Of a stretch of 64,000 bases of DNA, positions 8,721 to 56,949 are shown piece by piece. Each line of letters opens with the position of its first letter. The first letter of the stretch is position 1. Made by a program: the position numbers and the translations under genes. The notes below the pieces were generated by a model. The model worked only from the letters and a program-made list of their open reading frames with translations, ran no database searches and had not been told where the DNA came from. Source of the DNA: Nematopogon swammerdamellus. Lineage: Eukaryota > Arthropoda > Insecta > Lepidoptera > Adelidae. The stretch covers positions 20,297,891 through 20,361,890 of the forward strand of contig OX336349.1 in NCBI GenBank assembly GCA_946902875.1, given 5' to 3'.

Positions 8721-9029
8721 GGTTTGATTTCGGAGTTACCTTCTCCTATCCGAATGTTCCCTCCATGGTGGTGACGAGTCTCGGCTCCCGGGGTGTTTTG
8801 GTGGTGATTTAGTACCACCCGGATCCCACACCAGCCTTGCTAGTAAACTAGCAAGGGTGCCAAGTTATTTCCCGCCGCTTGGTGCTCGGCGTTGTCACTC
8901 GTTTGGCACCACCCAGGGGACACGTGTAGGGTGGTAAAAGGTATTTCCTACGGACGCGAGTGGCTTCCATCCCCTGATAAAAAATGGGAAAATTTTTATT
9001 CATTCTAGTAACAACCCTAGCCAATAGCG

Positions 9030-9720: not shown

Positions 9721-9737
9721 AATAATAAGGTCTTAGC

Positions 9738-10982
9738 ACTCTGCTTGAGGACTCAGAGCTGGGCTACTGTCTTCGAAGAGGAGGCTCTCGAATATCACAC
9801 TTATTTTATATGGATGACCTCAAACTGTTTGCCAAGTCGGACACCGAACTAATGCCGATGATGAAGATAACTGAAGGCTTCAGCAACGACATTGGAATGG
9901 AGTTCGGCTTGGAAAAATGTGGGACCATCCATGTGGAACGTGGTGTGATCGTGAACTCCGGCGGCATACAGTTGTCGGAGTCCATGAATGTTAGAGCTCT
10001 CTCCGAAGACGAAACTTATAAATATCTGGGAATATCGGAGGCTCTCAGCATACGGGATACGGACATGAAACAATCAGTTAAGGAAAAGTTTTTTCGTCGT
10101 CTTACAAAAGTACTAAATAGCCTTTTGTCAGGCGGCAATAAAATTCGTGCCTATAACGGTTGGGTCATGCCTGTGCTCGTATATACTTTCGGTATTCTCA
10201 GATGGACTCAGACCGAATTGGACTCGGTGGACAGAAAGGTCAGGACGCTGATGACGAAATCCCGTATGCATCACCCACGATCATCGGTCATGAGGTTGTA
10301 TATCCCGCGGAAGTGTGGGGGTCGAGGTATGTGAAATGCCAAGAACCTGCACAACCGCGAGGTATGCAATCTCCGTCAGTACTTTTTGGAAAAGACTGAT
10401 GTTTGTGAGATGCATCGCGATGTCGTCACCAGAGATAAAGGTCTTACCCCGCTGAGCATGGGAAAAGAGAACTGGCGGAAGCCGGTTGTACTGAGCACCG
10501 AGGACCGCATGGAAGTATGGAAAGGCAAGGAGCTGCACGGTAGGTACTTCCGGTCTCTCACGGGACCGGATGTAGACCAACTTGCTTCCGTGCACTGGCT
10601 ACGGTTCGGGGACCTCTTCGGGGAAACCGAAGGGTTTGTCTTTGCAATACAAGATGAGGTTGTCAAGACGAACAACTATAGGAAACACATAATGAAGGAC
10701 GGGACCATTGACATCTGCCGCGCCTGCCACCAACCTGGCGAGTCCCTCAGACATGTGATTTCCTGTTGTTCGCAGCTTGCCAACACCGAGTATTTGCATA
10801 GACACAACCTAGTAGCCAGGATTATCCACCAGCAACTTGCCTTAAAGTTCAACCTTGTAGGTACCGAAGTGCCTTACTATAAGTACAATCCGCCGCCAGT
10901 TCTCGAGAACGGTCATGTCACACTCTACTGGGACCGGTCCATTATCAATCACAGACAGGACTATTCTCGCGAACAGACCTGA
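9738..10982 (+). pseudogene. Reverse transcriptase C-terminal half (in-frame stop)
   Basis: The frame holds YMDDLKLFAKS (RT catalytic box, about 9807-9840) and FGLEKCG, then reaches a TGA at 10332-10334. The family sequence continues in the same frame after the stop, so this is a nonsense mutation rather than a frameshift. Further on, CRACHQPGESLRHVISCC (about 10714-10767) is the CCHC finger that precedes the nuclease. The frame ends at 10982, by which point the homologous sequence has moved to another frame. Confidence 0.8.
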
Positions 10983-13789: not shown

Positions 13790-13793
13790 GTAT
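13790..13793. repeat. Target site duplication GTAT, left
   Basis: GTAT immediately precedes the first TG of the left terminal repeat. The same four bases follow the last CA of the right repeat at 34227-34230. Confidence 0.75.
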
Positions 13794-14029
13794 TGTGATG
13801 GAATCACACAAGGTAAAAAAGATAAATATATAGCCAATAGTAATTCAAAGCTAAATTATAGAACATTAAAAACGTTTCATTAACAAAATAATTTATATTA
13901 CAATTTAACTAATCACCTAATAAATTCAATCGTGACTGCACACTCCACTAAGAAATAAAATGGCGCGAACGGCCATTACAATACGACGCGCAATTAGACA
14001 AACAAGAAATATAATAACATCAGTTGGTT

Positions 14030-14260
14030 CGCATATAAAACACTATAGAGCGCCGAGGCGGGGAAGGTAGCATGAGGTAATCCTGACACGCGGTGAGAGG
14101 GGAACAAGACATGGGCGCGTACGAAACGGCGGAGAGGTGAGGTAAGAAGGCGCGCGTCTTGCGGGCGCGGGGTCAGAGATCGCGGTATCATCACGCCGTT
14201 TGAGCGCGGCTTGAGGTAGCGAGTCAAGGAGCGCGAGTAGTGATTATTTCGCTGCGAGTT
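14030..14260 (+). repeat. GC-rich module of the LTR, first copy
   Basis: A GC-rich block with repeated gaggtaa and cggcggag motifs, ending gttagtatgaaagaatga. Related blocks are at 15095-15290 (ending gttagtatgaaggaatgg) and, diverged, 15560-15720 and 21050-21225. The block precedes each palindromic array. Confidence 0.6.
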
Positions 14261-14279
14261 GTTAGTATGAAAGAATGAA

Positions 14280-14890
14280 TTATTGTCAAGACACGATCGT
14301 GACACGCTCATACTGCGGGGCCACCGTACGTTTTGTTCCTATGTGTCAGAAACGTGACAAGCTCATACTAATAAGTTATTTTTATTTCCATACTAAATTT
14401 GTGTCAGGACACGAATGTGACACGGCCATACTACGAGGCCGCCGTTCGATTTGTTCCTGCATGACACAACCGTGTCCAGCACATACTAATTAATCTAATT
14501 TTATCTCCATACAAAAATAGTATCAGGACACGAATGTGACACGGCCATACTACGAGGCCACCGTTCGATTTGTTCGAGCGTGTCACAACCGTGTCCAGCC
14601 CATACTAAAAATTAAATTCTATCTCCATACGAAATTTCGCTCTGTGACACGAACGTGTCACGGCCATACTACGAGGCAACCGAGCGTTTTGTTCCTGCGT
14701 GTCAAGAACGTGTCACGGCCATACTAAGAGGGCGCCGTTCGATTTGTTCCTGCGTGTCCGATTCGTGTCGAGTCCATACTAATGATTCAATTTAATCTCC
14801 ATACTAAATTCGTGTCAGGACACGAATGTGACACGGCCATACTATGAGGTCGCTGGTCTATTTGTTCCTGCGTGTCTGGAATCTGGACAT
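14280..14890 (+). repeat. Palindromic tandem array 1 of the LTR (about 119-bp units)
   Basis: Repeated units contain gtgtcaggacacgaatgtga, cacggccatactacgaggc, the cgttcgatttgttcctgcgt box and a ccatac(t/a)aa box. The cacggccat landmark recurs at about 14419, 14538, 14659, 14712 and 14830, so spacing is about 119 bp with one short unit of 53 bp. The GTGTCA/TGACAC half-sites could bind a dimeric factor. Confidence 0.75.
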
Positions 14891-15094
14891 GACGGAGTTT
14901 ATGGGAATTTGAAGTTTCGTGATCTCTGTGAAGATATCGCACAGGGTCTAAAATTATTTTAATAATTATTTATTAATGATTCAAACTAATACACTAAACA
15001 TTTTATAAAGGGAAGAGTATATAAACAAAGTACCAGTTATTAAACAAAAACATAAAATAAAACAAAACAACGTTTCATTGAGTATGACGCCAAC

Positions 15095-15290
15095 ATTCAA
15101 ATAAATATCCGTTGGAGCGTGCGCGCGGGGCGGAGAGAGGTATGAGGTAAACAAGACAAGGGGTGAGGTATTACCGAGCTGCGGGCGCGCGTGGGCCGCG
15201 GGGCGAGGCGGAGCGACCTGAGGTAATTTGTCAAGCGGTGCGGGAGGGGTTTTCGTTAAGCGGTGTTAGTATGAAGGAATGGTTTCGTGT
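15095..15290 (+). repeat. GC-rich module of the LTR, second copy
   Basis: Shares the gaggtaa motifs, gcgggcgcg runs and the terminal gttagtatgaaggaatg with 14030-14260, at moderate divergence. Confidence 0.55.
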
Positions 15291-15754
15291 CCTAACATGA
15301 ATAAAACACGACGATGGTAAGGAGATTTCGATTGGTTTCTGCGTGTCCAGGTTCCGTACATGAATAGTATTATCAAACACGGAAGATGGTATCACGCATG
15401 TACAGGAATTAATATATAGACAATAAGAAAACTAACAACTTGGAACGTTAACATTTTAAATGAAAATACTCGAAGAATATAGACGATATTAAACAAAAAT
15501 ATATAAATAAAACACTCCGTTATGGCGCTAAAAGTCGATTTATTAATAGAGCATATGTAATAACATCAATTAATTTATATAACAAAAGCAACAGTTCTCT
15601 GCATGCGGAGATGCACAATGGGTGCGGGGAAGTGGTGTTAAAACCCCCGAAGTAGAGGTAAATCGCATCGCTGACGAGCGAAACAGCTTTAGGTACCATG
15701 TGGAAGGTACGAAGAGGGTTTGTTTTCCCTCCAAAATCGAATTTATATCGTGTC

Positions 15755-16015
15755 ACAAACGTGTCCAGTTCATACTAAAAACATAAAATTATCCTCCATA
15801 CAAAATTACGAGTCCGGACAGAAACGTGACACGGCCATACTACGAGGCAGCCGATCGATTTGTTCCTGCGTGACACAAACGTGTCCAGCCCATACTAAAA
15901 ATCGAAATTCAATCTCCATACAAAATCGCGCTCCGTGACACGAACGTGTCATGGCCATACTAGGAGGCCACCGTTCGATTTGTTCCTGCGTGTCAGGATT
16001 GTGACACGAGGAAAG
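15755..16015 (+). repeat. Palindromic tandem array 2, adjacent to the promoter
   Basis: About two further units of the array at 14280-14890, with gtgacacggccatactacga, cgatttgttcctgcgtga and cgtgtccagcccatactaaa. The last half-site, gtgtcaggattgtgacac, ends a few bases upstream of the TATA box, so the array occupies the proximal enhancer position. Confidence 0.75.
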
Positions 16016-16017
16016 AT

Positions 16018-16084
16018 TATAAAAGGAGAGGGAGGGGAGCGTGGAGAGTTCAGTCTGTTTTGGGAGTCGAAGGAGACGGTCGTG
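16018..16084 (+). promoter_or_regulatory. LTR core promoter: TATA box, initiator, DPE-like motif
   Basis: TATAAAA at 16018-16024 is followed by TTCAGTCT at 16049-16056, an arthropod-type initiator (TCAGT) with the A at 16052, 34 bases from the start of the TATA box. GGTCGTG at 16078-16084 matches the DPE consensus RGWCGTG but sits one base early (+27). The start at 16052 would divide the LTR into U3 13794-16051 and R beyond. Confidence 0.7.
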
Positions 16085-16104
16085 CGTATTTAGCGAGAGC
16101 CCAG

Positions 16105-16110
16105 GTACGA
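16105..16110 (+). promoter_or_regulatory. Possible 5' splice donor in LTR leader
   Basis: CCAG followed by GTACGA, a plausible donor 53 bases after the predicted start. If used, the long LTR-internal array would be intronic. Confidence 0.35.
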
Positions 16111-16117
16111 AAGTTAG

Positions 16118-16262
16118 TACGGCTTCGCTCGCGTGAGTTTTCGAATAAGTTCGGGAAAGAAGTATCGCTCGGCTTCGCTCGCGTGTATTTTCGATTGGGT
16201 TTTCCTAGTGAATAATTTCACTCGGCTTCGCTCGCGTGTATTTTTGATTGGGTTTTCTTAGT
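16118..16262 (+). repeat. Three short tandem units in the LTR
   Basis: The motif cggcttcgctcgcgtg occurs three times about 50 bp apart, each followed by agttttcgaa or tatttttgattgggtttt sequence. Confidence 0.7.
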
Positions 16263-16296
16263 AAATGAATTTGGTAAAAAACCCCGGTGATTGAAA

Positions 16297-17576
16297 TTAG
16301 TTTAATTTCGTGAATATTAGTGTGGAAATTTCTGTAAAGCTTTCGGAGTTGCAAATGAAGGTTGAGCTGGATTTTGTAATTTTGGGGGTGATATAGGGGT
16401 TTTCAACTAGTTTTACGGAAAATATTTTGGATGTTCTTTTTGAGCCTTTTGAGTTCTGGATGAAGGTCGAGCTGGATTCTGGAATCTTGACTGGTGATGG
16501 AAGGACTTCCAAAGAACTTTTACAATGACACTATGTCCGAACTGGCCTACCATGAGGACTGGTACATTGGGAAGGTTTTCTTAGTTCATAAATGATTTTG
16601 TAAAAACCGGTGAATAAAGTTTGTTTGTTTCGTAAATTTTAGTGTGGGAATTTCTGTAAAGCTTTCGGAGTTGCAAATGAAGGTTGAGCTGGATTTTGTA
16701 ATTTTGGGGGTGATATAGGGGTTTTCAACTAGTTTTACGGAAAATATTTTGGATGTTCTTTTTGAGCCTTTTGAGTTCTGGATGAAGGTCGAGCTGGATT
16801 CTGGAATCTTGACTGGTGATGGAAGGACTTCCAAAGAACTTTTACAATGACACTATGTCCGAACTGGCCTACCATGAGGACTGGTACATTGGGAAGGTTT
16901 TCTTAGTTCATAAATGATTTTGTAAAAACCGGTGAATAAAGTTTGTTTGTTTCGTAAATTTTAGTGTGGGAATTTCTGTAAAGCTTTCGGAGTTGCAAAT
17001 GAAGGTTGAGCTGGATTTTGTAATTTTGGGGGTGATATAGGAGTTTTCAACTAGTTTTACGGAAAATATTTTGGATGTTCTTTTTGAGCCTTTTGAGTTC
17101 TGGATGAAGGTCGAGCTGGATTCTGGAATCTTGACTGGTGATGGAAGGACTTCCAAAGAACTTTTACAATGACACTATGTCCGAACTGGCCTACCATGAG
17201 GACTGGTACATTGGGAAGGTTTTATTTTATATTAAAATATAATGGACTGTGACCTGATCATAAATTTCACGCACATAAAGGAAGTCAGTGAATAGAGTTT
17301 GTTTGATTCGTGAATTTTAGTGTGGGAATTTCTGTAAAGCTTTCGGAGTTGCAAATGAAGGTTGAGCTGGATTTTGTAATTTTGGGGGTGATATAGGAAT
17401 TTTCAACTAGGTTGCGAATTATATTTTGGATGTTCTTTTTGAGCCTTTTGAGTTCTGGATGAAGGTTGAGCTGGATTCTGGAATCTTGACTGGTGATGGA
17501 AGGACTTCCAAAGAACTTTTACAATGACACTATGTCCGAACTGGCCTACCATGAGGACTAGTACATTGGGAAGGTA
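16297..17576 (+). repeat. 322-bp tandem array of the LTR (four units)
   Basis: Using aatttctgtaaagctttcgg as landmark, units start near 16325, 16647, 16969 and 17327, a period of 322 bp except for the last, which is 36 bp longer. Each unit ends ggtacattgggaaggt. Each also holds an internal half-repeat (gcaaatgaaggttgagctgg versus tggatgaaggtcgagctgga). Three units are open on the minus strand, the fourth is not. Confidence 0.85.
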
Positions 17577-17579
17577 TTT

Positions 17580-18300
17580 TAAAATATAGAGAAGATTAAA
17601 AGAAACAAAACCCGATCTTTAAATTCGTAAATCCTACGTATATAAGAGTGTTTGAACCACGCGTAATTATTAAAAAATATGTCGAATTTAAATATGTAAA
17701 ATCAGTGGTTTTACCGTATTTTGATATAAAAGTATATTTTTATTAAGTGTTAACTTCGCGATTAGATTCAGTGGCGGGTGTTGTGGTTTCGCTTGAATTT
17801 AATATTTTACGCTATTCTATTTGTAATAGTGTTTTATTTAAGGTGATTGTAGTGAATCGTGTCAGACCGGTTAGGATAGTGGAATTCAAAGGTAAATTTT
17901 GTAATATATATGCACATGCAACATTCTGGCTAGTTACGTTTTAGGACGTAGGGATATTGCGTAAATCAGGTTTAAATATACCTGTATAGGTTATATAGAT
18001 TATGACCAGCACACAATTTTAATAAACCCTTAAGAAAATATTCCTAATTGATTTCGGTGAAAGGTGGACCCCTGACCGCATCATTTGGAATAAAACAATT
18101 TCTGTAGGGATATCAAAGATAGCCACAGAAATGTAAACCATAACATATACACTATACACTCACAATTAAAAGCATACACTTATGCCTTTAGGGAGGACAA
18201 AAGAATATCTTTTGAACTCCAACATAACACTACGAGATTAAATTGGTAAATCTGTCTGAAGATGTATATTTTGTACAGATTAGAAAACGGGGACTCCTAG
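17580..18300 (+). other. LTR segment without recognised content
   Basis: AT-rich LTR sequence. Short open frames here have no family resemblance and are identical in both LTRs only because the LTRs are. Confidence 0.5.
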
Positions 18301-18310
18301 GGACAAATAA

Positions 18311-18448
18311 TAAATTTGTAACTTAAGTACAAATTTATCTGCGTTGGGAGTCACGGGGACTGGCGATGGATAAATATCGTATGGACAGAGGGTCCATACG
18401 AATTTAGTGGGGCCAGTTCCACAACCCCCTTCAAAGGGGGTCAATAAA
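18311..18448 (+). terminator. Three consecutive hairpins and polyadenylation signal
   Basis: Hairpin 1: TAAATTTGTA (18311-18320) with its complement at 18328-18337. Hairpin 2: CGTATGGAC...GTCCATACG near 18378-18400. Hairpin 3: ACCCCCTT-CA-AAGGGGGT at 18424-18441. AATAAA follows at 18443-18448. This could be the 3' processing region of the element RNA (R/U5 boundary shortly after). Other AATAAA motifs exist in the LTR, so use of this one is inferred. Confidence 0.55.
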
Positions 18449-18761
18449 AGTTTGTATTGTTGAAGTTCTAAAATATAGAAGAAAATATAAAACAATAGAT
18501 TTCATCTATTGAACAGCACAACAAAATTAAGCTATCAAGTAATACATTGATCATAATTTAATAATAACAATAACACAAACATCAGAACACTTTCATTTTG
18601 AATTTTGGCGGGTCTCGCAAGCGAGGCGTGAGCGCGCTGTCGAAGCGTGCACATAGAACACAGAGGGAAACCAGAAGGGTTTAATGACTATAGATGAATG
18701 AGCAATTAGTTTAGTAAGTGTTTTAATGTTGATATTAGAATTACTAGAATAGATTTAGGAA

Positions 18762-18986
18762 ATGAGGGTTAGTACTCTGAGTTATTACGGTACACAACGG
18801 CTTTCTGAAAAGGAAGTAATAATTGGGTCCATTTTACAAGAATTATGTGTACGAATTAGCGACACTGTTTCTGACAAACCTAGAGATCACTTGAAAGCTA
18901 TACGCTGGCCATATTTCGATTCTTTATATTCTAGTTGTTCTAGAGCTATAGAGTTGATTTTTGATAATCCTGCCTTTAATATCTAA
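18762..18986 (+). CDS. 74-codon ORF near the LTR 3' end, unknown
   Basis: Encodes MRVSTLSYYGTQRLSEKEVI and onward to a stop at 18984-18986. Mixed polar and hydrophobic composition resembles a folded protein more than random translation, but I recognise no family. It is preceded by atttag/gaaATG, usable as a splice acceptor, and followed by AAG/GTAAAA, usable as a donor. It lies downstream of the predicted polyadenylation site, so in the left LTR it would be expressed only in a read-through, full-length RNA. The right LTR holds an identical copy at 33967-34191. It may be the relic of a larger protein. Confidence 0.3.
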   Translation: MRVSTLSYYGTQRLSEKEVIIGSILQELCVRISDTVSDKPRDHLKAIRWPYFDSLYSSCSRAIELIFDNPAFNI

Positions 18987-19492
18987 GGTAAAACAATAGG
19001 TATAGGGTGGAGGTTATTACAGTGCTGCGCGTGACCAGGATATATAAAAAAAAAATTTATGTAAAAATAAGTTCTTTTTTAGTTATAGTAGTGTTATCAT
19101 AAATCCAAGGAATTCAAAGATATATATATATAAACGTTTTGTAATGGTCTGACACGAGAAATCTTATTATTTTGTGCCAAAACGTAATTTGCGTAAGTGT
19201 AAGAGCGAATTGTATGGTTACGATTCGTAATGTAAGTCTAGGCGTGCCCAGTCTACTGCCAGTAAACATCGGAGCAGTTTCCAGCAGATGACATCTAACT
19301 ATGGTTTGGTCCATAGCAACAATGTGAGTTATTCCATTATCCGGCGAGATTACAAAATAAGTGTTTCTTTTCAGAGGTAAAATGTTGTACGTAATTGTGA
19401 AATGATTTACATGACCTACGCAATTACATCGTCATAAGTATGTTATTAGCCATTTATTATAAAAAGAAATTTTAATGTCACTTGCATAATGA

Positions 19493-19651
19493 TTATTTGT
19501 TCTATGGAAAAGTGGAACTGGAGAATTATTGATTGATGAGCGCTTGGCCAAGGCCACAGAATACTTGCGGGCGCAGGGCTACCAAATTTTTGAAAGACTA
19601 GTGTGGACTGGTTTTAAAGATGAAGCATGTTTGGGTGCATTGTGTGTTTAG
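19493..19651 (+). pseudogene. Coding-like exon fragment, unknown
   Basis: Open for 53 codons between an in-frame TGA (19490-19492) and TAG (19649-19651). The peptide includes LLIDERLAKATEYLRAQGYQ followed by IFERLVWTGFKDEACLGAL. Codon usage and amphipathic pattern look protein-derived, unlike the surrounding sequence. There is no ATG; an acceptor-like AG occurs at 19511-19512. It may be a captured host exon or the relic of an element protein. Confidence 0.3.
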
Positions 19652-21049
19652 AGAAATTCGTGCTAAAGGGTTTGGGAAGTTTAATCTGACTTATTTAATT
19701 ATATTGTTCAAAAAAAAAAAAAAAAGGGGAAATAGGAAATAATAATAATATGTGGTGCACGGAGTCGTATTATACAGATGTTGTTTATGTATGTGTCACA
19801 TTATGCATTGAATTGTTTGGGAATAAAACAAACAGATACCAAAGTCCCTGTAGAGCAGCGCCGGTTGCTCTATTTGCCTGGTTTGTCGGAGGGGGAAGCG
19901 TGTGTTGTGTGTATGTATGTATGATTTCTATTACTTTGTTATTATGTGGAAATTGCAATCACGAAATTTGAAGTGAGAAGGTGGAATATTTTTGGCAACC
20001 CTACACAAGTTTGTAAATTTCGTGTTGATTAGGCCCATGAGGAGAGAACCATGGTCAAGAAAGATTGATTTATGGGTGCACGTGTTGTACTGTTTGTGTT
20101 TGATCATTAGTTTCGTTTGGCATAAGTGTACGAATGATTCTTATCTCTTTCCCACTAGTATAAAGTGTATGCAATGCAAGTAAGAGTTAGAACGAGACAG
20201 TAGACTAGAGCGCTATTTTAGACTTGCTCTTCTAGTGGGGTGTGAATGAGAGAGAGAGAGATACAATTGATATACGAGACTAACAAAAGTTGAAGAATTC
20301 AACCACGTGGCGATGCAGGTGTTCAATTTAGACAAAAAAAAATGGAGAAGCGCGTGGTTTAGCTCAGATTGCTAATACAAAGATGTTTGTCTGGTTTGTG
20401 TATTTTGGTAAAAGAGTGAATGAATATTGGTATATATATAATTGTCAGAGGCAATGAAATAGCAGTGCCGAGAAAGAAAAAATTTTTTTTTTCATGTTTA
20501 GGTAAACGAAATGAATAGTGAATGATGAGTAGGTAAATGCATGTTAGATTTTACTGTTAATTTTTTTTGGGTAATTTGTGTATTTTTAAATGTGTGCATA
20601 ATAAACTGTGCGAGTATCATACCACAGTGGATGTTTGTATATGAAATGGTTTTATTTGATTGAGAATAAATCAATACATATTGATTTATTACTTCGTGAC
20701 TTTATGTGTTGCTGTGCTATAAGACGACGGACTAGCCACCTCTCGTTTTGTCATGACTTACTCGAATGTTGTACAGACGGATGCGTTTTGTACTGTCGCG
20801 CGTAGTTACTGGAAAAAGTGTCGCAACTGTACTTGCGACGTGCTACACCTCAGGGGTGAGTAGCTGTGACAACGTGTCTTTCGTTTTGTTGAAGATAAAG
20901 ATTACATGTTTATCCAGTATGAATGTTTGTGTACGGTTTGACTGGATGGATTGTCAACGCACGTTGACTAGACCGTTTTGATCATTTTTGTGACGCAGGG
21001 ACATACGCTCATTGGACGGATTGTTGCTATTTTAACATGATTCAAGTAT

Positions 21050-21225
21050 ACTAAGCGGAGACTCTGTTGAGTTGATGACCGAGCAGGGCGTAGCTCGCGC
21101 GCGCGTCCTGCGGGCGCGGAGACAGAGTTCGCAACACCATCACGCCGTTGGAGGTGCGGCGTGGTTGGCGAAGTAATTGAGGAATGGGAAGGCCATTAGC
21201 GATGTTAACAGTAGCACGGTTCTTC
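21050..21225 (+). repeat. Diverged copy of an LTR GC-rich module inside the interior
   Basis: Shares gcgcgcgtcctgcgggcgcg, the caccatcacgccgtt segment and flanking motifs with 14130-14230 of the LTR. Its presence suggests that the interior contains remnants of an older LTR. Confidence 0.6.
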
Positions 21226-21809
21226 TGTTGTGTCAAGTATCTCGTCGGGAAAACAATGCGCAGAAAATACAATTTATTTTGTCATGCACTGAGTCTTGAG
21301 ATGTGTATGGGTTGAGTGATCGGCGTTGTGCCTCGGTTAATATAGTATTAAGCGGCATAGCATAGAATATTACAAGTTGTAGGATGCAGGTTGGTGCACA
21401 AAAAGCGAATGATGAAATCGTTTTGCGGAGCCTACGCTGTCTGCTTGTATGTCTGCCTGTTCTACTAAAGTTGAAATTTGTTTCAGGGTAAATGTAGAGT
21501 TCTGTAGAATGGTTGTGTCTGTCCGTTCTACTAGAATTGACAGTTAATTCGGAAGGAATGAGGAGTTCTGTAATAAGCGTATGTAGATTTTGTTTCTGTC
21601 AGTACTCCTGGAGTGCAATTGAGGGTTTTATTGTTGTGCTGTGTCATTGTAAAGCATTGGGATGCTATGAGTTCGTTTTACGTCCGGTTCTATAGTGCCA
21701 CTTAAACATTAATAATATGAACATGCCGGCTACAGCGTCAGAAACTTGCAGTTTCATAAGAACAAATGAGAGGCCGGACGGTTACAATTTGGAATTGTCG
21801 CCAGGCGAG

Positions 21810-22150
21810 GCGAATTTGTTGGGGCGCATCGGGAGATTTTTTTACTGATGAATTAAAAACTTTTATCAAGTAATATGTTAAGAAGAGAGTATAGTTCTAC
21901 GATAATATATAGGAGTGATTGTGAGTGAGGCGGAACTTTGCGGATGACGAATCGCGCTTTGTAGGGAAAGAAAAAAAAAACGAACTTGCGATGTTTTGCT
22001 TCTTGCGAATTTGTTGGGGCGCATCGGGAGATTTTTTTACTGAAGAATTAAAATTTTATCAAGTAATATGTTGTGAAGAGAGAGTAGTTTTATGCTAGTA
22101 GAAAGGGGTGACTGTGCGTGAGGCGAAACTCTGCGGATGGCGAGTGACGG
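21810..22150 (+). repeat. Tandem duplication, 205-bp period
   Basis: gcgaatttgttggggcgcat starts at 21810 and again at 22015. Each is followed by cgggagatttttttactga and ends near ctgcggatg-cga. Confidence 0.8.
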
Positions 22151-25100
22151 ACTGGCCACTTCTCACCTTGGCACGGTTATACTGTTAGGTAGTGCGGGAA
22201 AAGGACCCTGTATCTTGTTGCAATGTGAAGGTTGACTTGCCTGGATGCAGCATGTTGGTATGTGTGGGAGATAGGTTTTATGGATGCCATGTCGGAGTGT
22301 TGGTTATCTGTGGAATTGAATATACGTTAGTGTGGTCAGCAGTATAACGCTGTTTATTTCACTGCTTGAGATGTGGGTTGGAATAAAATATATATATCAG
22401 TTTGTGATTGTATGTATTTGTCAAGCAGTAATGTATATAATTGGCTGTAGAGCAGAAGTTTGATATTAGATGTAACGTTTCAGCTAATTAGAACATTATA
22501 ATTGTGCCAATTAATATAGATAATGGAAGGGACTACAGTTTTACAACGATTCAGAAAGATGAAGTTAAAAGTGTTTGTTGAAAATCAAGCAAGAAGGCTA
22601 TTAAGCGCCTAGTCCGAGGCGACACGCAATAGAATTACTAGTTGATGGTTTGTTGCGGTGTGTTGTCGAAGGCGTATTTCACTATCAAACAGTGTAGATC
22701 CATTTTATCAACTTAGTTATGAATTGGAAATGTTGGATGGTATGTATTTGAGGAAGTATGTTTGAGCTAATGTAGGTATATGGATTCCGTGTTAACTGAA
22801 GTCATATATTTTGTGTATGGGAACGAAGCATAAATATTTGTCTAGTTGTATGAGTTTGTTCATTTTATAAAAGCGAGTACATGGATATATTAGTATTTAT
22901 GTATTCTTACAACGTGATTGGGAGTTAGAAGATAAGATAGTCGTATCTTGTCTCACTAACATTATTGGGGAAATTGAATGGATGTGATGACGGTCTAATA
23001 GAAAACGTATGCATTAACTTTTCTATGTAGAAATTCAATTCTGAAGATGTGTATTATTGGATTCCATTAATTATCTTATGTCAACGTATTGACTGGAAGT
23101 GGAGGTTTTCCTATATTAAGTATCCTGTCTGCGGATGTCGGAGCAAGACACTGTTGTCCAGAAAAAATTTTTTGCCTGACGTACTCAGCCCATTGCCACT
23201 GGAGGTGGACAGTAGATGTTGCCTGTTTTATGGGTCGGTTGTATGTGAGCTGTTTGCTTGTGAAAATTACGTGAATGAAGGGGTGGGTCTAAGAGTTGCC
23301 GGAAATAATACATTGGTGCCACCATTTTGAATAGAGGATTGATGCGGCTGTATGGTTGATTCGAGTTTGGTTCAGTTCAGTGTGGCCAGCATTAACGGGG
23401 TAGGTAGGCATTCGTGTGAAACCTGTTCCGCCAAATTATTAGAGCAAATAGCTTAGATATTATAAGTAGATTATTAATTTAATTTAAATACGATTTAGAT
23501 TTTGAAAAGAATGAAGTGAGGTCGTATATTGGCCGGTCATTCATTATATTCACACAAGATGCAAAACCGTGGCGGCATTTCAGTTCTAGGCTTTCTGAGA
23601 ATCAATATGCGATTGGATAATCATTTAAATGTGGATGTTATAGAAAAGCTTTATAGAAAATCCATACTCCAAACTGATCTTCTTATGTGGAAATCTGTAA
23701 AATGATAAAACTAGTATGAAATGCCCGGATATTTAATTCCACATTTTATCTTGAAAATCATTTAAAAATGGATAATTCCATATAAATGGTAACGTTGCTG
23801 TGGTTGTGTATTAACTGACTCAGGGCGCCCGGTTCAAAAATATTTGAAGGAATATGGATCTTATCGCGAACAATAAGAACCATTGCTAGTGTTTGTTTTG
23901 CTTTCACAGCGTAAGGGGACCAGACTTGCGTACTAAAACAAATAAGTACCAACCTTACGGAGTGAATTTCGGAGTAAATCCGAAAAGGAGGAAAAAAAAG
24001 GGGAAAGAAAATAAGTCGAATGGAGAAAGATTTGGTAGGGTACTCAAATACTCAAGAACCCGGGAAAATGGGAAAAAGAAGGAAAAAGGAAAAAAATTTA
24101 AAATTAGGAAATAAACATACCCACAGTTCACAATGTTCACATCATAGTGACATCTGAAAGGAAGTGGTTAAGAGGCAGGGAGGGAGTGAGGGGTTATGAA
24201 AAATGCTTAATGATTTTGCAGAAGCAAATTATACTTATACAATACTAGTATTATGTTTGGAAGTGAGTTTTGCGAAACATGGAGTATTCTATTTACTTGC
24301 CATCTATTGGTGTATTAGTGAAGTTTTGACATTACAACGTAGAAAATTTTGTTGGGCATTGTTATACATAGAGAGATAGGTGTCGCTGGAACAAAATAAT
24401 TATATTTAAAATTCAAATTAAACTTTTCCTCCCTTTTACAAAAGTAAACATCAGGGCCCCTGCCGTGCTGGTTTCGCTCGCGCGACGGGTTCGGGTTGCG
24501 TTCGACTCGATTGGTCGCGCGAGGCAGATTATTTTGGTGCCGGCGTACGGGTGGGTGCGCATGCGAGTGTTGTACAGGTGACGAAATTGTCGAGCGAGTG
24601 TCGATCCGCCAATCTTGCCACTATTAAATTTTACTGAATGTATTGTGCTACCTAGAATGCAAGGCGCTCATTTTGTCGGGTATCGGGCGGTCAATGTGGT
24701 ATGTATACTATTTGTCGGAATCTTTATGTTAGTTAAAGGAGGAAAAAGGGTATTGACTGAATTGAAAACGCGTATAAATTGAGCACCTCGATGTTTAAGA
24801 GTAGCTATTTGGTGTTGGTGGGAATTGCATCGTGGTAGCACACGTGATGTTGGTTGTCGGTCGGTCGGCCAGTTGTGTGGGTGATGATGACAATCATTTT
24901 GAATCTCTTCCCCTCAACCCTCCGCCTTTCCTCCAGCCATATTGCCTGGCCACAAAAATACCCCGATAGCGGTGCTGGCGGGGTGGGGCCGCGGTGAGGT
25001 GCGGAGGAAGGCGCATTTATTCGAGGAGAGGAGGTGCCTGGCCTGTGATGCCTATATGGAGGTTCCGACGGGTGGTACATAGCTGTGGATACCTAGCTGT

Positions 25101-25299
25101 CTAAAAATGAATAGCTCCTGTATGTACCTATCTATTGTTATCATACTTGGTTATACACTGTAGCTCCACTACCGGTCACCTATAATTTGGTTACATAGGT
25201 GGGTACATACTTGGATAGGCGCTGTCAAATTGATGTGAGTCGTGTGCTTAGAACACAAGACTTTATTTAGCATTAACAACGGTACCGTGCGTGTGGGCC

Positions 25300-25615
25300 G
25301 GTCGGTGTTGATGATAGTGGCCCCGCTGCGTTTCTCCCCGTGCGTGTAGAGGAGGAGGCGGCTGGGGTGCGGGGAACATGGTGCCGTGCTGAGGGGCGGC
25401 GGGCTGGCCCCTGTCGCATTGTCGTGGTCCTTCCGCCGAGTCGTGCGGAGGGGTGGGTCTTCGTGCTTGCTTGCTGCTTGAAGTGGTTGGGTGTGTGTGG
25501 CGCGGCACCGGTTGCTCTGCTTGCCCCGGTTGTCGGGTTGATGGTCGGGGTGTGGCGTGTGGTATGTGTGGTATGTGTGGTGTGTTGTGTGTGTGTGTGT
25601 GCCTAGGTACAGGCT
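25300..25615 (+). repeat. Decayed repeat C inside the giant element
   Basis: Diverged but colinear with repeat C: ccccgctgcgtttctccccg, ccttccgccgagtcgtg, gggtcttcgtgcttgcttgc and ggttgctctgcttgccccgg, then a tgtg-rich tail. Shared substitutions make it more GC-rich than other copies. A similar short tail piece is at 19858-19925. Confidence 0.65.
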
Positions 25616-27284
25616 TTATTCTTATTTTGTTTTGGTGATAGGTACATAAGTACCTACTTGTATTTTATCTATAATATTTGAGTGAATACTTAATGAATGA
25701 AGGAATGAACAACTTGTAGATGGAATAATGCATGTTTAAATACCTCTACACTAGATTCAAAGAGGGGAATCATTAATTTGGCATGTGATCAACCTTGAGA
25801 TTTTCTGAACTGTCGCAGGGGATGATCGGGATCAATCGAGTGTTTGAGTGAGCGTATGCGTCGGGATGACTCGAGGTCCGAGTTCACATTTCGTGCAACT
25901 TTGCCAGTGGCTGTCAAGGTGTGGTGGAGCGGCGTGCGAGTTCGAGTGGACCACGGGACCGTTTCGTGCACTCGCTCGCTTGTGCATTTGACAGATACGA
26001 CGGTGCCATTTATGCCTACTCGTTCGCTTTGCTCGAGCTCGTCGATCGAGTGGAATTGCCACGGTCGGGCTGCTGAGTGTATAGCCTATTAAATGATAAT
26101 GTTAAAATTATGAGAGTTACATTAATCCGAATTAGTTTAAATTTATATTATTTATTTAAGGTTTACCATAACTAAAGATCTTGAACTTGCTCATTGATGA
26201 GTATTTTGAAAGGTAAAGTGACAGCGTAAAGTTTCGGCACGAATGTGTTTATATATTTTGTAGGGGGTCTTATATAAATACCTTGGTTCGTATTAGTCGG
26301 CAGCGGCCTGTGTCAGACTGCTGCTGGACGTGGGCATTTCCAGGGGTTTCCCACCTCGCTCGGTGTTTCACTTTAATTTTATTCTGCTCTTGCCTACCTA
26401 TGGGGTTATAGGTGCACTTAACTGAAGGAGGAGCGTTCCATTTTATGCTTAGGCGTGGTCGACGATCGGGCGTCTGTCTGCTACAGAGTATCGGATAAAC
26501 GACGAATGTGCTCGGACACTGCATATGATTGCGCAACATTTGTTGGAATGAAATTATGGATATTTATTTATATCTGTATGTGTAAGATTGTTTGGATAAT
26601 TTTTGTTGTAATTGGGCGTTGCCAATGGACGAGCATACTAGAGAAGTAATGGGTATGCATTCTGAGTGAACGGTTCCGGACGAATGAATGTGTGAGGGGA
26701 TGATCAGTGCCTGAAACTTTTGAAGTTCGTTACTTCCAGGAATTCATAACGGAAAGTGTGAATTGGTAAAAGTTTGAATCGAGGTTAAATGATAATTTCT
26801 CACAGAATAGTTTGTGAAGTGGAATTGTAAGGGGTATTACGGGGTTTGAGTGATTTAGGGGATTAGGCATTGGATGGGTACTTGCTGAAAAAAAAAAAAA
26901 ATGTAATTTTATTAAGCGCCTTGTCAAAATTGATTATGTGAAACAACCTACTGTTACGCATAATCGTTACACTATACAAAACCTTCTTCAATTTCTATTA
27001 TCACGTTATCTATCGGTGACTTTTATCATGTTAAGGATACTTTGTCGGTAGCGAGCGTATTGAATTGTTGATAGACGTAGTTGTGGGTTACATTCTCATA
27101 AATACTGTAAATAAACCACTAGAGTAGTGCTCATTAAATTATTGTTAAAATAAATAGATTCATACGGGTTAGAAAATTAAAATTAAATTTCACAGAGTAA
27201 GTAAAGTCATGCGGGCGAAGAAAAAAAATAATAAATAAATATATTAATTAATTCTAAAATAAAAAGAAAAAAAAAAATAATGAA

Positions 27285-28740
27285 CTACTTGCATAGCCTA
27301 AGCCGGTGATGGTAAGGTGTGTTATGTGTTCTTCACGGACCAGTTCTGTCCTGCCGAACTGCTTACATAGCCTAAGCCAGGAGTGGTAAGGCGTGTATTG
27401 CATTGTAAACAGTGATGTACTGTATCGGTCCTTACGATAAATAATAATAATAATAATAATTCTCGTCTCCCGTCGCCGGCGAGAATACCGTCTTTTGTTT
27501 ATGTCTGTTTGTATAAATTTTATATAGATAATTTATTTTATAAATATATAAAATTAATATAAATAAGTATAAAAAAAAAAAAAACGGGAAACAAATATGA
27601 CAAAATAAATAAATAAAATGCTGTACAGTGAGGAGAGTTAGACTAAATTACTTCTAAATAAGAAGTAACAAAAATTTAAAATAGACTTGTTGACTTGAGT
27701 GGATGGTTTTGGTTGTTTGTGTAAAATACGCGAGTAAACCTGCGGGTATTGTAGTGTCTGTACTCTGTAGTGAAATTTCCTTCTAATGAGAGCAGCGCTC
27801 TAACCTGAAGGGACCTTTACAAGGAATCAGGATACTTTGGCTTCGTTTGGTTTTCCCATACATTGCTTCGAAAATAATGTTAAATTAAATTCAGTGTGAA
27901 GAACACACAATTTGGGACTTAGAAAAGGTGAGGTGAAAATGCCTTAAGTGCAGAACTTTACATTTTACTGAGTCTGACTCACGCTGGGGAGGGATTATGA
28001 CATCGTCTACTAAAGGCGTTCCGAACACAAAAAAATGGAGCGTTGGAAGTTCAGGATGACATTTTCTGGTCTATTTACAGTGAATGAGTGTAGTATTTGG
28101 TTTGAAATCATTAACCGGAGAAATGTTGGAGGAGTTAAAGTAGAATCGTTTACAAGCATACCGAGTCCGTCTATTCGTCAATAGGTGAGTTAGGATCCAA
28201 AATGATGCATGAGTCGATTTCGAAGTCTTTTGAAAATATGTATCCCGACTACTCTGCCTTTAATGGAAGCTTGTTGTGCTAGGATACATGCATAGCCTAA
28301 GCCGGAGGTGGTAAGGTGTGTTATGTGTTCTTCACGGACCAGTTCTGTCCTGCCGAACTGCTTGCATAGCCTAAGCCGGAGGTGGTAAGGTGTGTATTGC
28401 ACTGTAAGCGGTGATGTTCTGTTTCGGCCCATACGGTAAAGGATGAGACTAGAGGTTCCTGCACTGTTGGGAAATCTGTTAGAGGCAGAATATAGGGATC
28501 TAAGGCTTTGAGGTGATAACTTTTGCCTAAATTCCTAGATTTATTAATAATAAACTAAATCAATTACACTAAAATATTTGTTTAATGTAGTATTGGCACG
28601 AGCTGCAAATGGAAGATAAGGGAAAGAGTGCAAACATGGTCTAAGCCGGAGGTGGTAAGGTTGTGGTATGCATTCTAAAAATCTTTTCTCTTTAAGCTAA
28701 GGGAGATAAATCCTAAGCTGGAGGGTAAGAAATTCCTAAA
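27285..28740 (+). repeat. Dispersed-tandem CTAAGCCGGAGGTGG repeats upstream of the right LTR
   Basis: The motif catagcctaagccggaggtg (with variants) followed by gtaaggtgtg occurs near 27293, 27366, 28290 and 28366, with weaker forms at 28637 and 28708. Two of the blocks (27285-27440 and 28285-28440) are about 150-bp duplicates including ttcttcacggaccagttctg. A (TAA)n run lies at 27441-27460. Confidence 0.75.
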
Positions 28741-31222
28741 GCACGTGGACAGATGGTGTTGAAAAAAAAAAAACACACAAATTAAAAATTATAGAAGAAG
28801 GGGGTCTCTGGAAGGGAACTTGAACCCTAACAGTGATAAATAATTATATATACAAACTTCTTGGAAGGGAACAATAAAACCCTAACAAAGAAGAAGTAAT
28901 TTTCAAGATCATAATGTATATAGCTTCTTAACGAGATCAAGCGTCACGGAATGAGGTTCCGTTGACTTTGCTTCGTTACGAACCTCTATGCGGGCGACTG
29001 TGATGGAATCACACAAGGTAAAAAAGATAAATATATAGCCAATAGTAATTCAAAGCTAAATTATAGAACATTAAAAACGTTTCATTAACAAAATAATTTA
29101 TATTACAATTTAACTAATCACCTAATAAATTCAATCGTGACTGCACACTCCACTAAGAAATAAAATGGCGCGAACGGCCATTACAATACGACGCGCAATT
29201 AGACAAACAAGAAATATAATAACATCAGTTGGTTCGCATATAAAACACTATAGAGCGCCGAGGCGGGGAAGGTAGCATGAGGTAATCCTGACACGCGGTG
29301 AGAGGGGAACAAGACATGGGCGCGTACGAAACGGCGGAGAGGTGAGGTAAGAAGGCGCGCGTCTTGCGGGCGCGGGGTCAGAGATCGCGGTATCATCACG
29401 CCGTTTGAGCGCGGCTTGAGGTAGCGAGTCAAGGAGCGCGAGTAGTGATTATTTCGCTGCGAGTTGTTAGTATGAAAGAATGAATTATTGTCAAGACACG
29501 ATCGTGACACGCTCATACTGCGGGGCCACCGTACGTTTTGTTCCTATGTGTCAGAAACGTGACAAGCTCATACTAATAAGTTATTTTTATTTCCATACTA
29601 AATTTGTGTCAGGACACGAATGTGACACGGCCATACTACGAGGCCGCCGTTCGATTTGTTCCTGCATGACACAACCGTGTCCAGCACATACTAATTAATC
29701 TAATTTTATCTCCATACAAAAATAGTATCAGGACACGAATGTGACACGGCCATACTACGAGGCCACCGTTCGATTTGTTCGAGCGTGTCACAACCGTGTC
29801 CAGCCCATACTAAAAATTAAATTCTATCTCCATACGAAATTTCGCTCTGTGACACGAACGTGTCACGGCCATACTACGAGGCAACCGAGCGTTTTGTTCC
29901 TGCGTGTCAAGAACGTGTCACGGCCATACTAAGAGGGCGCCGTTCGATTTGTTCCTGCGTGTCCGATTCGTGTCGAGTCCATACTAATGATTCAATTTAA
30001 TCTCCATACTAAATTCGTGTCAGGACACGAATGTGACACGGCCATACTATGAGGTCGCTGGTCTATTTGTTCCTGCGTGTCTGGAATCTGGACATGACGG
30101 AGTTTATGGGAATTTGAAGTTTCGTGATCTCTGTGAAGATATCGCACAGGGTCTAAAATTATTTTAATAATTATTTATTAATGATTCAAACTAATACACT
30201 AAACATTTTATAAAGGGAAGAGTATATAAACAAAGTACCAGTTATTAAACAAAAACATAAAATAAAACAAAACAACGTTTCATTGAGTATGACGCCAACA
30301 TTCAAATAAATATCCGTTGGAGCGTGCGCGCGGGGCGGAGAGAGGTATGAGGTAAACAAGACAAGGGGTGAGGTATTACCGAGCTGCGGGCGCGCGTGGG
30401 CCGCGGGGCGAGGCGGAGCGACCTGAGGTAATTTGTCAAGCGGTGCGGGAGGGGTTTTCGTTAAGCGGTGTTAGTATGAAGGAATGGTTTCGTGTCCTAA
30501 CATGAATAAAACACGACGATGGTAAGGAGATTTCGATTGGTTTCTGCGTGTCCAGGTTCCGTACATGAATAGTATTATCAAACACGGAAGATGGTATCAC
30601 GCATGTACAGGAATTAATATATAGACAATAAGAAAACTAACAACTTGGAACGTTAACATTTTAAATGAAAATACTCGAAGAATATAGACGATATTAAACA
30701 AAAATATATAAATAAAACACTCCGTTATGGCGCTAAAAGTCGATTTATTAATAGAGCACATGTAATAACATCAATTAATTTATATAACAAAAGCAACAGT
30801 TCTCTGCATGCGGAGATGCACAATGGGTGCGGGGAAGTGGTGTTAAAACCCCCGAAGTAGAGGTAAATCGCATCGCTGACGAGCGAAACAGCTTTAGGTA
30901 CCATGTGGAAGGTACGAAGAGGGTTTGTTTTCCCTCCAAAATCGAATTTATATCGTGTCACAAACGTGTCCAGTTCATACTAAAAACATAAAATTATCCT
31001 CCATACAAAATTACGAGTCCGGACAGAAACGTGACACGGCCATACTACGAGGCAGCCGATCGATTTGTTCCTGCGTGACACAAACGTGTCCAGCCCATAC
31101 TAAAAATCGAAATTCAATCTCCATACAAAATCGCGCTCCGTGACACGAACGTGTCATGGCCATACTAGGAGGCCACCGTTCGATTTGTTCCTGCGTGTCA
31201 GGATTGTGACACGAGGAAAGAT

Positions 31223-31289
31223 TATAAAAGGAGAGGGAGGGGAGCGTGGAGAGTTCAGTCTGTTTTGGGAGTCGAAGGAGACGGTCGTG
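31223..31289 (+). promoter_or_regulatory. Core promoter of the right LTR
   Basis: Same TATAAAA, TTCAGTCT and GGTCGTG arrangement as at 16018-16084, unchanged. If active here it would transcribe out of the element into 34.2 kb onward. Confidence 0.65.
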
Positions 31290-33515
31290 CGTATTTAGCG
31301 AGAGCCCAGGTACGAAAGTTAGTACGGCTTCGCTCGCGTGAGTTTTCGAATAAGTTCGGGAAAGAAGTATCGCTCGGCTTCGCTCGCGTGTATTTTCGAT
31401 TGGGTTTTCCTAGTGAATAATTTCACTCGGCTTCGCTCGCGTGTATTTTTGATTGGGTTTTCTTAGTAAATGAATTTGGTAAAAAACCCCGGTGATTGAA
31501 ATTAGTTTAATTTCGTGAATATTAGTGTGGAAATTTCTGTAAAGCTTTCGGAGTTGCAAATGAAGGTTGAGCTGGATTTTGTAATTTTGGGGGTGATATA
31601 GGGGTTTTCAACTAGTTTTACGGAAAATATTTTGGATGTTCTTTTTGAGCCTTTTGAGTTCTGGATGAAGGTCGAGCTGGATTCTGGAATCTTGACTGGT
31701 GATGGAAGGACTTCCAAAGAACTTTTACAATGACACTATGTCCGAACTGGCCTACCATGAGGACTGGTACATTGGGAAGGTTTTCTTAGTTCATAAATGA
31801 TTTTGTAAAAACCGGTGAATAAAGTTTGTTTGTTTCGTAAATTTTAGTGTGGGAATTTCTGTAAAGCTTTCGGAGTTGCAAATGAAGGTTGAGCTGGATT
31901 TTGTAATTTTGGGGGTGATATAGGGGTTTTCAACTAGTTTTACGGAAAATATTTTGGATGTTCTTTTTGAGCCTTTTGAGTTCTGGATGAAGGTCGAGCT
32001 GGATTCTGGAATCTTGACTGGTGATGGAAGGACTTCCAAAGAACTTTTACAATGACACTATGTCCGAACTGGCCTACCATGAGGACTGGTACATTGGGAA
32101 GGTTTTCTTAGTTCATAAATGATTTTGTAAAAACCGGTGAATAAAGTTTGTTTGTTTCGTAAATTTTAGTGTGGGAATTTCTGTAAAGCTTTCGGAGTTG
32201 CAAATGAAGGTTGAGCTGGATTTTGTAATTTTGGGGGTGATATAGGAGTTTTCAACTAGTTTTACGGAAAATATTTTGGATGTTCTTTTTGAGCCTTTTG
32301 AGTTCTGGATGAAGGTCGAGCTGGATTCTGGAATCTTGACTGGTGATGGAAGGACTTCCAAAGAACTTTTACAATGACACTATGTCCGAACTGGCCTACC
32401 ATGAGGACTGGTACATTGGGAAGGTTTTATTTTATATTAAAATATAATGGACTGTGACCTGATCATAAATTTCACGCACATAAAGGAAGTCAGTGAATAG
32501 AGTTTGTTTGATTCGTGAATTTTAGTGTGGGAATTTCTGTAAAGCTTTCGGAGTTGCAAATGAAGGTTGAGCTGGATTTTGTAATTTTGGGGGTGATATA
32601 GGAATTTTCAACTAGGTTGCGAATTATATTTTGGATGTTCTTTTTGAGCCTTTTGAGTTCTGGATGAAGGTTGAGCTGGATTCTGGAATCTTGACTGGTG
32701 ATGGAAGGACTTCCAAAGAACTTTTACAATGACACTATGTCCGAACTGGCCTACCATGAGGACTAGTACATTGGGAAGGTATTTTAAAATATAGAGAAGA
32801 TTAAAAGAAACAAAACCCGATCTTTAAATTCGTAAATCCTACGTATATAAGAGTGTTTGAACCACGCGTAATTATTAAAAAATATGTCGAATTTAAATAT
32901 GTAAAATCAGTGGTTTTACCGTATTTTGATATAAAAGTATATTTTTATTAAGTGTTAACTTCGCGATTAGATTCAGTGGCGGGTGTTGTGGTTTCGCTTG
33001 AATTTAATATTTTACGCTATTCTATTTGTAATAGTGTTTTATTTAAGGTGATTGTAGTGAATCGTGTCAGACCGGTTAGGATAGTGGAATTCAAAGGTAA
33101 ATTTTGTAATATATATGCACATGCAACATTCTGGCTAGTTACGTTTTAGGACGTAGGGATATTGCGTAAATCAGGTTTAAATATACCTGTATAGGTTATA
33201 TAGATTATGACCAGCACACAATTTTAATAAACCCTTAAGAAAATATTCCTAATTGATTTCGGTGAAAGGTGGACCCCTGACCGCATCATTTGGAATAAAA
33301 CAATTTCTGTAGGGATATCAAAGATAGCCACAGAAATGTAAACCATAACATATACACTATACACTCACAATTAAAAGCATACACTTATGCCTTTAGGGAG
33401 GACAAAAGAATATCTTTTGAACTCCAACATAACACTACGAGATTAAATTGGTAAATCTGTCTGAAGATGTATATTTTGTACAGATTAGAAAACGGGGACT
33501 CCTAGGGACAAATAA

Positions 33516-33653
33516 TAAATTTGTAACTTAAGTACAAATTTATCTGCGTTGGGAGTCACGGGGACTGGCGATGGATAAATATCGTATGGACAGAGGGTCC
33601 ATACGAATTTAGTGGGGCCAGTTCCACAACCCCCTTCAAAGGGGGTCAATAAA
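33516..33653 (+). terminator. Hairpin triplet and AATAAA, right LTR
   Basis: Identical to 18311-18448. In a full-length transcript begun at 16052, this copy would provide the 3' end. Confidence 0.55.
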
Positions 33654-33966
33654 AGTTTGTATTGTTGAAGTTCTAAAATATAGAAGAAAATATAAAACAA
33701 TAGATTTCATCTATTGAACAGCACAACAAAATTAAGCTATCAAGTAATACATTGATCATAATTTAATAATAACAATAACACAAACATCAGAACACTTTCA
33801 TTTTGAATTTTGGCGGGTCTCGCAAGCGAGGCGTGAGCGCGCTGTCGAAGCGTGCACATAGAACACAGAGGGAAACCAGAAGGGTTTAATGACTATAGAT
33901 GAATGAGCAATTAGTTTAGTAAGTGTTTTAATGTTGATATTAGAATTACTAGAATAGATTTAGGAA

Positions 33967-34191
33967 ATGAGGGTTAGTACTCTGAGTTATTACGGTACAC
34001 AACGGCTTTCTGAAAAGGAAGTAATAATTGGGTCCATTTTACAAGAATTATGTGTACGAATTAGCGACACTGTTTCTGACAAACCTAGAGATCACTTGAA
34101 AGCTATACGCTGGCCATATTTCGATTCTTTATATTCTAGTTGTTCTAGAGCTATAGAGTTGATTTTTGATAATCCTGCCTTTAATATCTAA
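33967..34191 (+). CDS. 74-codon ORF, right LTR copy, unknown
   Basis: Same 74-residue product as 18762-18986, with identical flanking splice-like signals. It lies after the predicted polyadenylation site of the full-length RNA, so only transcripts starting elsewhere or reading through could include it. No function recognised. Confidence 0.25.
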   Translation: MRVSTLSYYGTQRLSEKEVIIGSILQELCVRISDTVSDKPRDHLKAIRWPYFDSLYSSCSRAIELIFDNPAFNI

Positions 34192-34226
34192 GGTAAAACA
34201 ATAGGTATAGGGTGGAGGTTATTACA

Positions 34227-34230
34227 GTAT
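34227..34230. repeat. Target site duplication GTAT, right
   Basis: Follows the terminal ATTACA. Pairs with 13790-13793. Confidence 0.75.
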
Positions 34231-44656: not shown

Positions 44657-44975
44657 TGACCGTGTGAGACCGGTACTTAAAAATAATAGCCCCACTGCAT
44701 CTCTCCCCGTGCATGTCGTAAAAGGCGACTGAGTGATAAGGACAAGATGCGGTGCATAAGGGCGACAGGATAGCCACCTCTCACATTGGCACGGCCCTTC
44801 CACCGAGTCATGTAGCAGGTGGGTCTTCGTGTCTTACTTGCTGCTTGATAGATATCTTGTCCGAAAACGTAGTGGTCAGTGTTGTGCTGTAATTTGCAAC
44901 AGTATTTGCAGTACGACACCGATTACTCTGCTTACGCAGATTATAGTGATAGAGCGTGTGGTAAGGTGCATGCAA
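44657..44975 (+). repeat. Repeat C, long copy
   Basis: gaccggtacttaaaaataat, ccccactgcatctctccccg, ccttccaccgagtcatgtag, gtgggtcttcgtgtcttact and gattactctgcttacgcaga in order. Opposite in strand to the copy at 961-1313. Confidence 0.75.
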
Positions 44976-56850: not shown

Positions 56851-56949
56851 TCGGCAGTTACCGCGAAGTTCGACCGAATGCGGCCAGCGGACGGATTCTC
56901 TATTTGATCCAATTGCGAGAATTTATAGTCGAGGTGGAATTCATTCATG

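Follow-up and report, generated by a model that had tools for sequence, protein, structure and literature searches.

Terminal repeats and target-site duplication

The window analyzed here is a 64,000-nucleotide stretch of contig OX336349.1 from the lepidopteran Nematopogon swammerdamellus (assembly GCA_946902875.1), numbered from its first base, and the subject of this report is a large element that occupies positions 13794–34226 on the plus strand of that window. Self-BLAST of the window showed that the element is bounded by two direct repeats of 5,228 bp, which we refer to as the 5′ and 3′ long terminal repeats (LTRs; 13794–19021 and 28999–34226, both on the plus strand) and which differ at a single base, at repeat position 1761. 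The self-BLAST alignment paired 13794–19023 with 28999–34228 at 99.98% identity; its final two bases are a GT common to the interior and the target duplication, and the repeats themselves stop at 19021 and 34226. Each repeat starts with TGTGATGG and ends with TTATTACA, giving TGT...ACA termini. Comparison of the flanks revealed the tetranucleotide GTAT directly outside both outer repeat ends (13790–13793 on the left and 34227–34230 on the right, with no strand assigned) and at neither inner junction. These borders are precisely those that had been claimed in the sequence-only reading that we followed up (direct repeats of 5228 bp that run TGT...ACA, flanked by a GTAT target duplication of 4 bp), which proved exact to the base.

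Among the features by which LTR retrotransposons are recognized are direct terminal repeats that are nearly identical and have TG..CA ends, and a target-site duplication of 4–6 bp outside both LTRs; both were found. A random draw of 400,000 position pairs from the window gave 5,763 pairs whose flanks matched over 4 bp in any of three registers; in 22 of the 400,000 such a match coincided with TG..CA ends. Two separate insertions of one 5.2-kb element around host DNA were ruled out as the origin of the repeats, as each insertion would bear its own two-sided duplication.

Because the LTRs differ at one base in 5,228 bp, the insertion appears to be young. With a butterfly mutation rate of 2.9e-9, the LTR divergence corresponds to ~33,000 generations (Poisson upper bound ~184,000), a value to be read as an order of magnitude only. 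Long near-identical repeats are also where assemblies fail, and with a single copy to hand the pair might be an artefact of assembly or segmental duplication in which a 5.2-kb block was doubled. We regard this as the least credible of the explanations considered, in that the borders coincide with the TG..CA ends, with a duplication confined to the outer ends and with the transfer RNA (tRNA) primer-binding site described below, none of which a mis-join would yield.

A tRNA-His primer-binding site beside the 5′ LTR

We aligned the first 26 bases downstream of the 5′ LTR to the complements of the 3′ ends of 26 insect-type tRNAs. The best-scoring tRNA was tRNA-His, with a score of 14, followed by tRNA-Arg with a score of 8. 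The corresponding site (19023–19041, plus strand) begins 1 nucleotide past the LTR and matches 17 of 18 tRNA bases, with one mismatch, at the third base, and one inserted G. A score of 14 was reached by none of 3,000 shuffles and by one of 3,000 random 26-mers from the window, which turned out to be the site itself (drawn from position 19020), and when both strands of the window were scanned with all 26 tRNAs, a score of at least 13 occurred solely at the 5′ LTR border. The element thus has a tRNA primer-binding site in the place expected of an LTR retrotransposon, although imperfect at the complement of the CCA end. A site starting tggtgccgtgac has elsewhere been placed two mismatches from His (GTG) (PMC4724089). 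We also considered self-priming, for which complements of 8–13 bases to the first 30 interior bases were sought in the LTR; the search returned two 8-base matches, both to the A/T-rich part, and this candidate was rejected.

Of the evidence newly gathered here for an LTR retrotransposon, the putative tRNA-His primer-binding site, as judged from the alignment, carries the most weight. It bears in particular on the idea of a DNA-level element, class II or otherwise, in which tandem or circular copying would have left a 15.2-kb unit 1.34 times over and a transposase would generate the 4-bp duplications. The terminal redundancy, the 4-bp duplication, the short inverted ends and the lack of a polypurine tract at the border (see below) would all suit such an element. 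However, a DNA transposon would have no use for a tRNA primer-binding site next to the 5′ LTR, and the TG..CA ends and the U3/R/U5-like layout of the repeats favor an LTR element, which makes a DNA-level origin very improbable.

Promoter-like anatomy of the LTR

The layout of the 5′ LTR was derived from a predicted promoter and from a change point in GC skew at 15990, which together place the putative U3 region at 13794–16051 (plus strand). The plus strand of U3 contains seven copies of GGCCATACTA and eight of GTGACACG, two motifs that this strand lacks in R/U5 and in the interior and flanks; of the complement CGTGTCAC, four copies lie in U3 and one in the flanks. Self-comparison of U3 identified direct repeats of ~120 bp in two plus-strand blocks, the first at 14278–14876 and the second at 15749–16008, stopping just upstream of a TATA box. 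This TATA box belongs to a core-promoter-like arrangement found by motif scan (16018–16055, plus strand), which comprises TATAAAAG at 16018 and the initiator TCAGTC and which predicts a +1 position at 16052. On the plus strand of the window, such TATA–initiator pairs were found only in the two LTR copies; the minus strand contains three.

Downstream of the predicted start, self-comparison of R/U5 revealed tandem units of 322 bp (16251–17578, plus strand; 31456–32783 in the 3′ LTR copy). AATAAAGTTTGTTTG occurs in two of these units, at 16613 and 16935, and these sites are likely poly(A) signals, as judged by motif. With reiterated upstream motifs, a putative TATA box plus initiator and downstream units containing AATAAA, the repeats look like LTRs in their internal organization as well as in their ends.

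Strand bias of R/U5 and the interior

GC skew was 0.265 in R/U5 (16052–19021) and likewise 0.265 in the interior, compared with 0.092 in U3. The flanks had values of 0.057 (left) and −0.003 (right), and 10-kb stretches of them spanned 0.064 to 0.083 on the left and −0.02 to 0.01 on the right. The skew change point within the LTR lies ~60 bases ahead of the predicted start, and the maximum of the cumulative skew over the whole window (34246) lies 20 bases beyond the element. We take this excess of G over C to be the signature of a long unit transcribed on the plus strand, which would start at the LTR promoter. The bias might stem from mutation that accompanies transcription or reverse transcription, or else from selection acting on the RNA.

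An apparently non-coding interior

The interior (19022–28998, plus strand), with a GC skew of +0.265, appeared non-coding in open reading frame (ORF) and Pfam analyses. The longest stop-to-stop ORF in the interior (148 amino acids) was equalled or exceeded in 53 of 200 Markov shuffles, and that in the LTR (132 amino acids) was attained in 48 of 200. Twenty ORFs of at least 80 amino acids lie in the interior and eight within the 5′ LTR, and Pfam was run on 20 of these (16 interior and 4 LTR), which gave six matches, all with E > 0.03 and under the curated cut-offs, such that no family was accepted. The interior ORFs outside the Pfam set (25273–25602 and 25832–26101 on the minus strand, 25277–25606 and 25393–25638 on the plus strand) overlap tested ORFs in other frames or strands. 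Relics of gag-pol were therefore not found by Pfam in the 20 ORFs, shorter or strongly frame-shifted relics being outside that search. Database protein searches with two of the element's ORFs yielded no match among 10 and 11 candidates, and Rfam and tRNA scans of the whole window found nothing. The earlier claim of a ~10-kb interior without gag-pol accordingly held up, with 9,977 bp, no ORF beyond chance and no Pfam domain in the ORFs searched. An interior of several kilobases without coding capacity, as indicated here by the ORF shuffles and by Pfam on 16 of the 20 interior ORFs that reach 80 amino acids, is also expected of large retrotransposon derivatives (LARDs).

The interior contains a 156-bp repeat pair (27286–27441 and 28285–28440, plus strand), identified by BLASTN and motif count, and the motif CCTAAGCCGG..GGTAAGG at 27296, 28295 and 28369. 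BLASTN with an E cut-off of 1e-3 found no copy of the LTR elsewhere in the 64-kb window, and for the interior it found five short matches (32–170 bp). A fragment at 25314–25481 was 73–74% like window repeats at 1118–1277 and 44683–44848 (BLASTN) and is possibly captured genomic DNA.

Such a fragment would be in keeping with a recently gutted copy of a coding LTR family, in which the LTRs would be those of an autonomous element and the interior, captured or rearranged in this one copy, would not represent a coherent non-coding family. On the other side stands the strand bias, which is the same in R/U5 and the whole interior; because both show a skew of 0.265, R/U5 and the interior would seem to have evolved together. 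We consider a gutted copy unlikely, though a good deal less so than a DNA-level element, and it overlaps with the reading that we favor, a non-autonomous LTR retrotransposon, so that the two are not mutually exclusive.

The 3′ border lacks an adjoining polypurine tract

The sequence preceding the 3′ LTR was examined for the polypurine tract that would be expected at 28979–28998 (plus strand). A base count showed that 10 of the 20 bases before 28999 are purines, and no polypurine tract adjoins the 3′ LTR. A run scan of the 400 bp upstream of the LTR found seven purine runs of at least 8 bases, the nearest of which end 102, 127, 180 and 194 nucleotides away. These four, of 9–12 bases, form a cluster at 28793–28896 (plus strand), 102–194 nucleotides before the 3′ LTR, which comprises AGAAGAAGGGGG (28793–28804), GGAAGGGAA (28810–28818 and again at 28863–28871) and AAAGAAGAAG (28887–28896). 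In base composition the cluster is like a displaced polypurine tract, as might be seen if a gutted copy had undergone changes in the 3′ portion of its original interior. The most tract-like of the runs is AGAAGAAGGGGG, which ends 194 nucleotides from the 3′ LTR; a tract at its position would not give the observed LTR border.

Because the LTRs differ at one base in 5,228 bp, decay of a polypurine tract after insertion is unlikely, which leaves either plus-strand priming at an unusual site or a template switch during the last jump. A short inverted repeat, GAGGTTC...GAACCTC, lies at 28953–28986, just before the 3′ LTR and at the expected location of a polypurine tract; the LTR opens with a second one, TGTGAT-GGA-ATCACA, seen by eye. 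These border inverted repeats may be relevant to plus-strand priming.

Other features of the window

Outside the element, the minus strand contains a nearly complete long interspersed nuclear element (LINE; 4394–8735), which encodes a PRE_C2HC gag-like protein, an endonuclease and a reverse transcriptase in overlapping frames. The ORF for its reverse transcriptase has 2,467 database relatives. Of the best 120 of these, most have no organism attached, and the named ones are Tuta, Plutella, Diatraea, Mythimna, Euphydryas, Parnassius, Pieris and Leptosia, all of which are Lepidoptera, in keeping with a lepidopteran host. A second non-LTR retrotransposon remnant likely lies at 9729–10982 on the plus strand, where 9729–10331 gave a weak RVT_1 match (26.9 bits, against a cut-off of 29.6). 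A long, diverged tandem array with a period of ~350 bp occupies 55019–56874.

Discussion

Taken together, these results make it highly probable, on sequence grounds, that the element is a non-autonomous LTR retrotransposon, a reading of which the gutted copy is itself a variant. This interpretation gains independent support from the tRNA-His primer-binding site and from the promoter-like anatomy of the LTR. Most likely, the element is young, giant and non-coding, and would be LARD-like in its working, with the polypurine tract of a LARD lacking. A primer-binding site and a polypurine tract are the minimum that LARD-like elements are reported to retain (PMC3286476); in the Nematopogon element the primer-binding site is present but imperfect, and the border tract is absent. 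The sequence-only reading had compared the element with the LARD type, and that comparison stands in part: the LTR-type structure without recognizable gag-pol, the primer-binding site and the promoter-like anatomy speak for it, and the missing border polypurine tract speaks against it. The same reading saw in the element the window's best candidate for an undescribed system, a claim that can be no more than tentative, as insect LTR families without coding sequence have already been published.

Because the element has no recognizable protein genes, it probably borrows the enzymes of another element. In the mechanism that we propose, RNA polymerase II would start near 16052 and produce an RNA of ~16 kb that terminates within R of the 3′ LTR. 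Another LTR element would supply Gag, reverse transcriptase and integrase to package this RNA, tRNA-His would prime minus-strand DNA and the integrase would insert the copy by a 4-bp staggered cut.

Several observations weigh against this interpretation. The foremost is that the 3′ LTR has no adjoining polypurine tract, which is one of the defining features of LTR elements. The primer-binding site contains an inserted base and departs by one mismatch from the complement of the CCA end, despite an LTR identity that leaves little time for decay. The predicted promoter has little weight by itself, in that a TATA box plus initiator occurred in 97 of 1,000 LTR-length Markov sequences, or ~1 in 10. 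A TATA box plus initiator plus a strictly placed downstream promoter element (DPE) would be found in 3 of 1,000 by chance, and this stricter promoter was ruled out, as the DPE-like GGTCG lies one base out of register. With respect to strand bias, the minimum of the cumulative skew over the whole window (15111) lies away from the promoter, some 200-bp bins of R/U5 have negative skew and the U3 of the 3′ LTR, which is expected to lie within the RNA, has a skew of only 0.091. Finally, no second copy was found in the window, with five viral-contig patterns, with one genome-contig pattern or in one plasmid search (with 16001–19021), negatives that say little for the viral-contig, genome-contig and plasmid collections, where insect DNA is not expected.

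For several known systems, comparison with the element clarifies what it shares and where it stands apart. LARDs have LTRs of several kilobases. They consist of LTRs and a core domain, give no protein products and are thought to be moved in trans (PMC7215508), so the LTRs around a core that encodes no protein and the assumed dependence on autonomous elements are common to plant LARDs (PMC7215508) and the Nematopogon element. Unlike the plant LARDs, the element resides in a lepidopteran host, has a 10-kb interior and has a 3′ LTR without a polypurine tract. Among insects, one LARD-like Culex element, found by others, is mentioned in a report on Culex quinquefasciatus (PMC3286476), and the same report describes cqUNK, a set of 38 LTR families without coding sequence that have LTRs of 125–931 bp and lengths of up to 14,602 bp (PMC3286476). 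The cqUNK families are likewise non-coding insect LTR elements with tandem repeats and with a master copy that is described as not known (PMC3286476). They are reported to have sharp primer-binding sites and polypurine tracts, and the primer tRNAs tabulated there do not include tRNA-His (PMC3286476). In the element described here, by contrast, the LTRs are 5,228 bp long and themselves hold the longest tandem repeats.

With respect to size, the Ogre elements of plants are also very large, and their LTRs of 1.9–6.5 kb bracket the 5.2 kb seen here (PMC6431247). Ogre and the Burro elements of planarians are giant Gypsy elements, and both are coding, unlike the Nematopogon element (PMC6431247). Silkworm endogenous retroviruses are lepidopteran LTR elements with total lengths of up to 20,275 bp; they differ in having LTRs of 101–687 bp, and their common structures have gag-pro-pol or pol between the LTRs (PMC6085415). 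In the structure-based step of a silkworm transposable-element database, full-length LTR elements were those with Pfam similarity (PMC3722987). Annotation that depends on gag-pol domains overlooks elements such as the one described here, and we found no insect element with LTRs of ~5.2 kb in the part of the open-licence literature that we searched.

The carb-TE insertion of the peppered moth is reportedly a class II element of ~22 kb, in which a ~9-kb unit is said to be present ~2 1/3 times, with a 4-bp duplication and short inverted ends. As so described, it would share with the Nematopogon element a lepidopteran host, a size of ~20 kb, a 4-bp duplication and a unit with a partial terminal repeat, and would differ in being classed as class II and tandem. 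One could imagine a lineage in Lepidoptera of giant non-coding LTR elements with promoter-bearing LTRs of 5 kb, tRNA-His priming and a plus strand made without an LTR-adjoining polypurine tract, whose tandem forms (LTR–interior–LTR–interior–LTR) would include regulatory insertions filed as class II, such as carb-TE; we put this forward as a speculation with very little chance of being right. If the element does represent a true family, Lepidoptera bear mobile promoter cassettes of 20 kb, which may be missing from standard libraries and could change nearby genes. As a young element with a tRNA primer-binding site and no LTR-adjoining polypurine tract, it would also be a test case for how the plus strand is started in retrotransposon parasites. 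Set among these systems, and given that insect LTR families without coding sequence are already known, the element looks like a further non-autonomous LTR retrotransposon, and an unusually large one.

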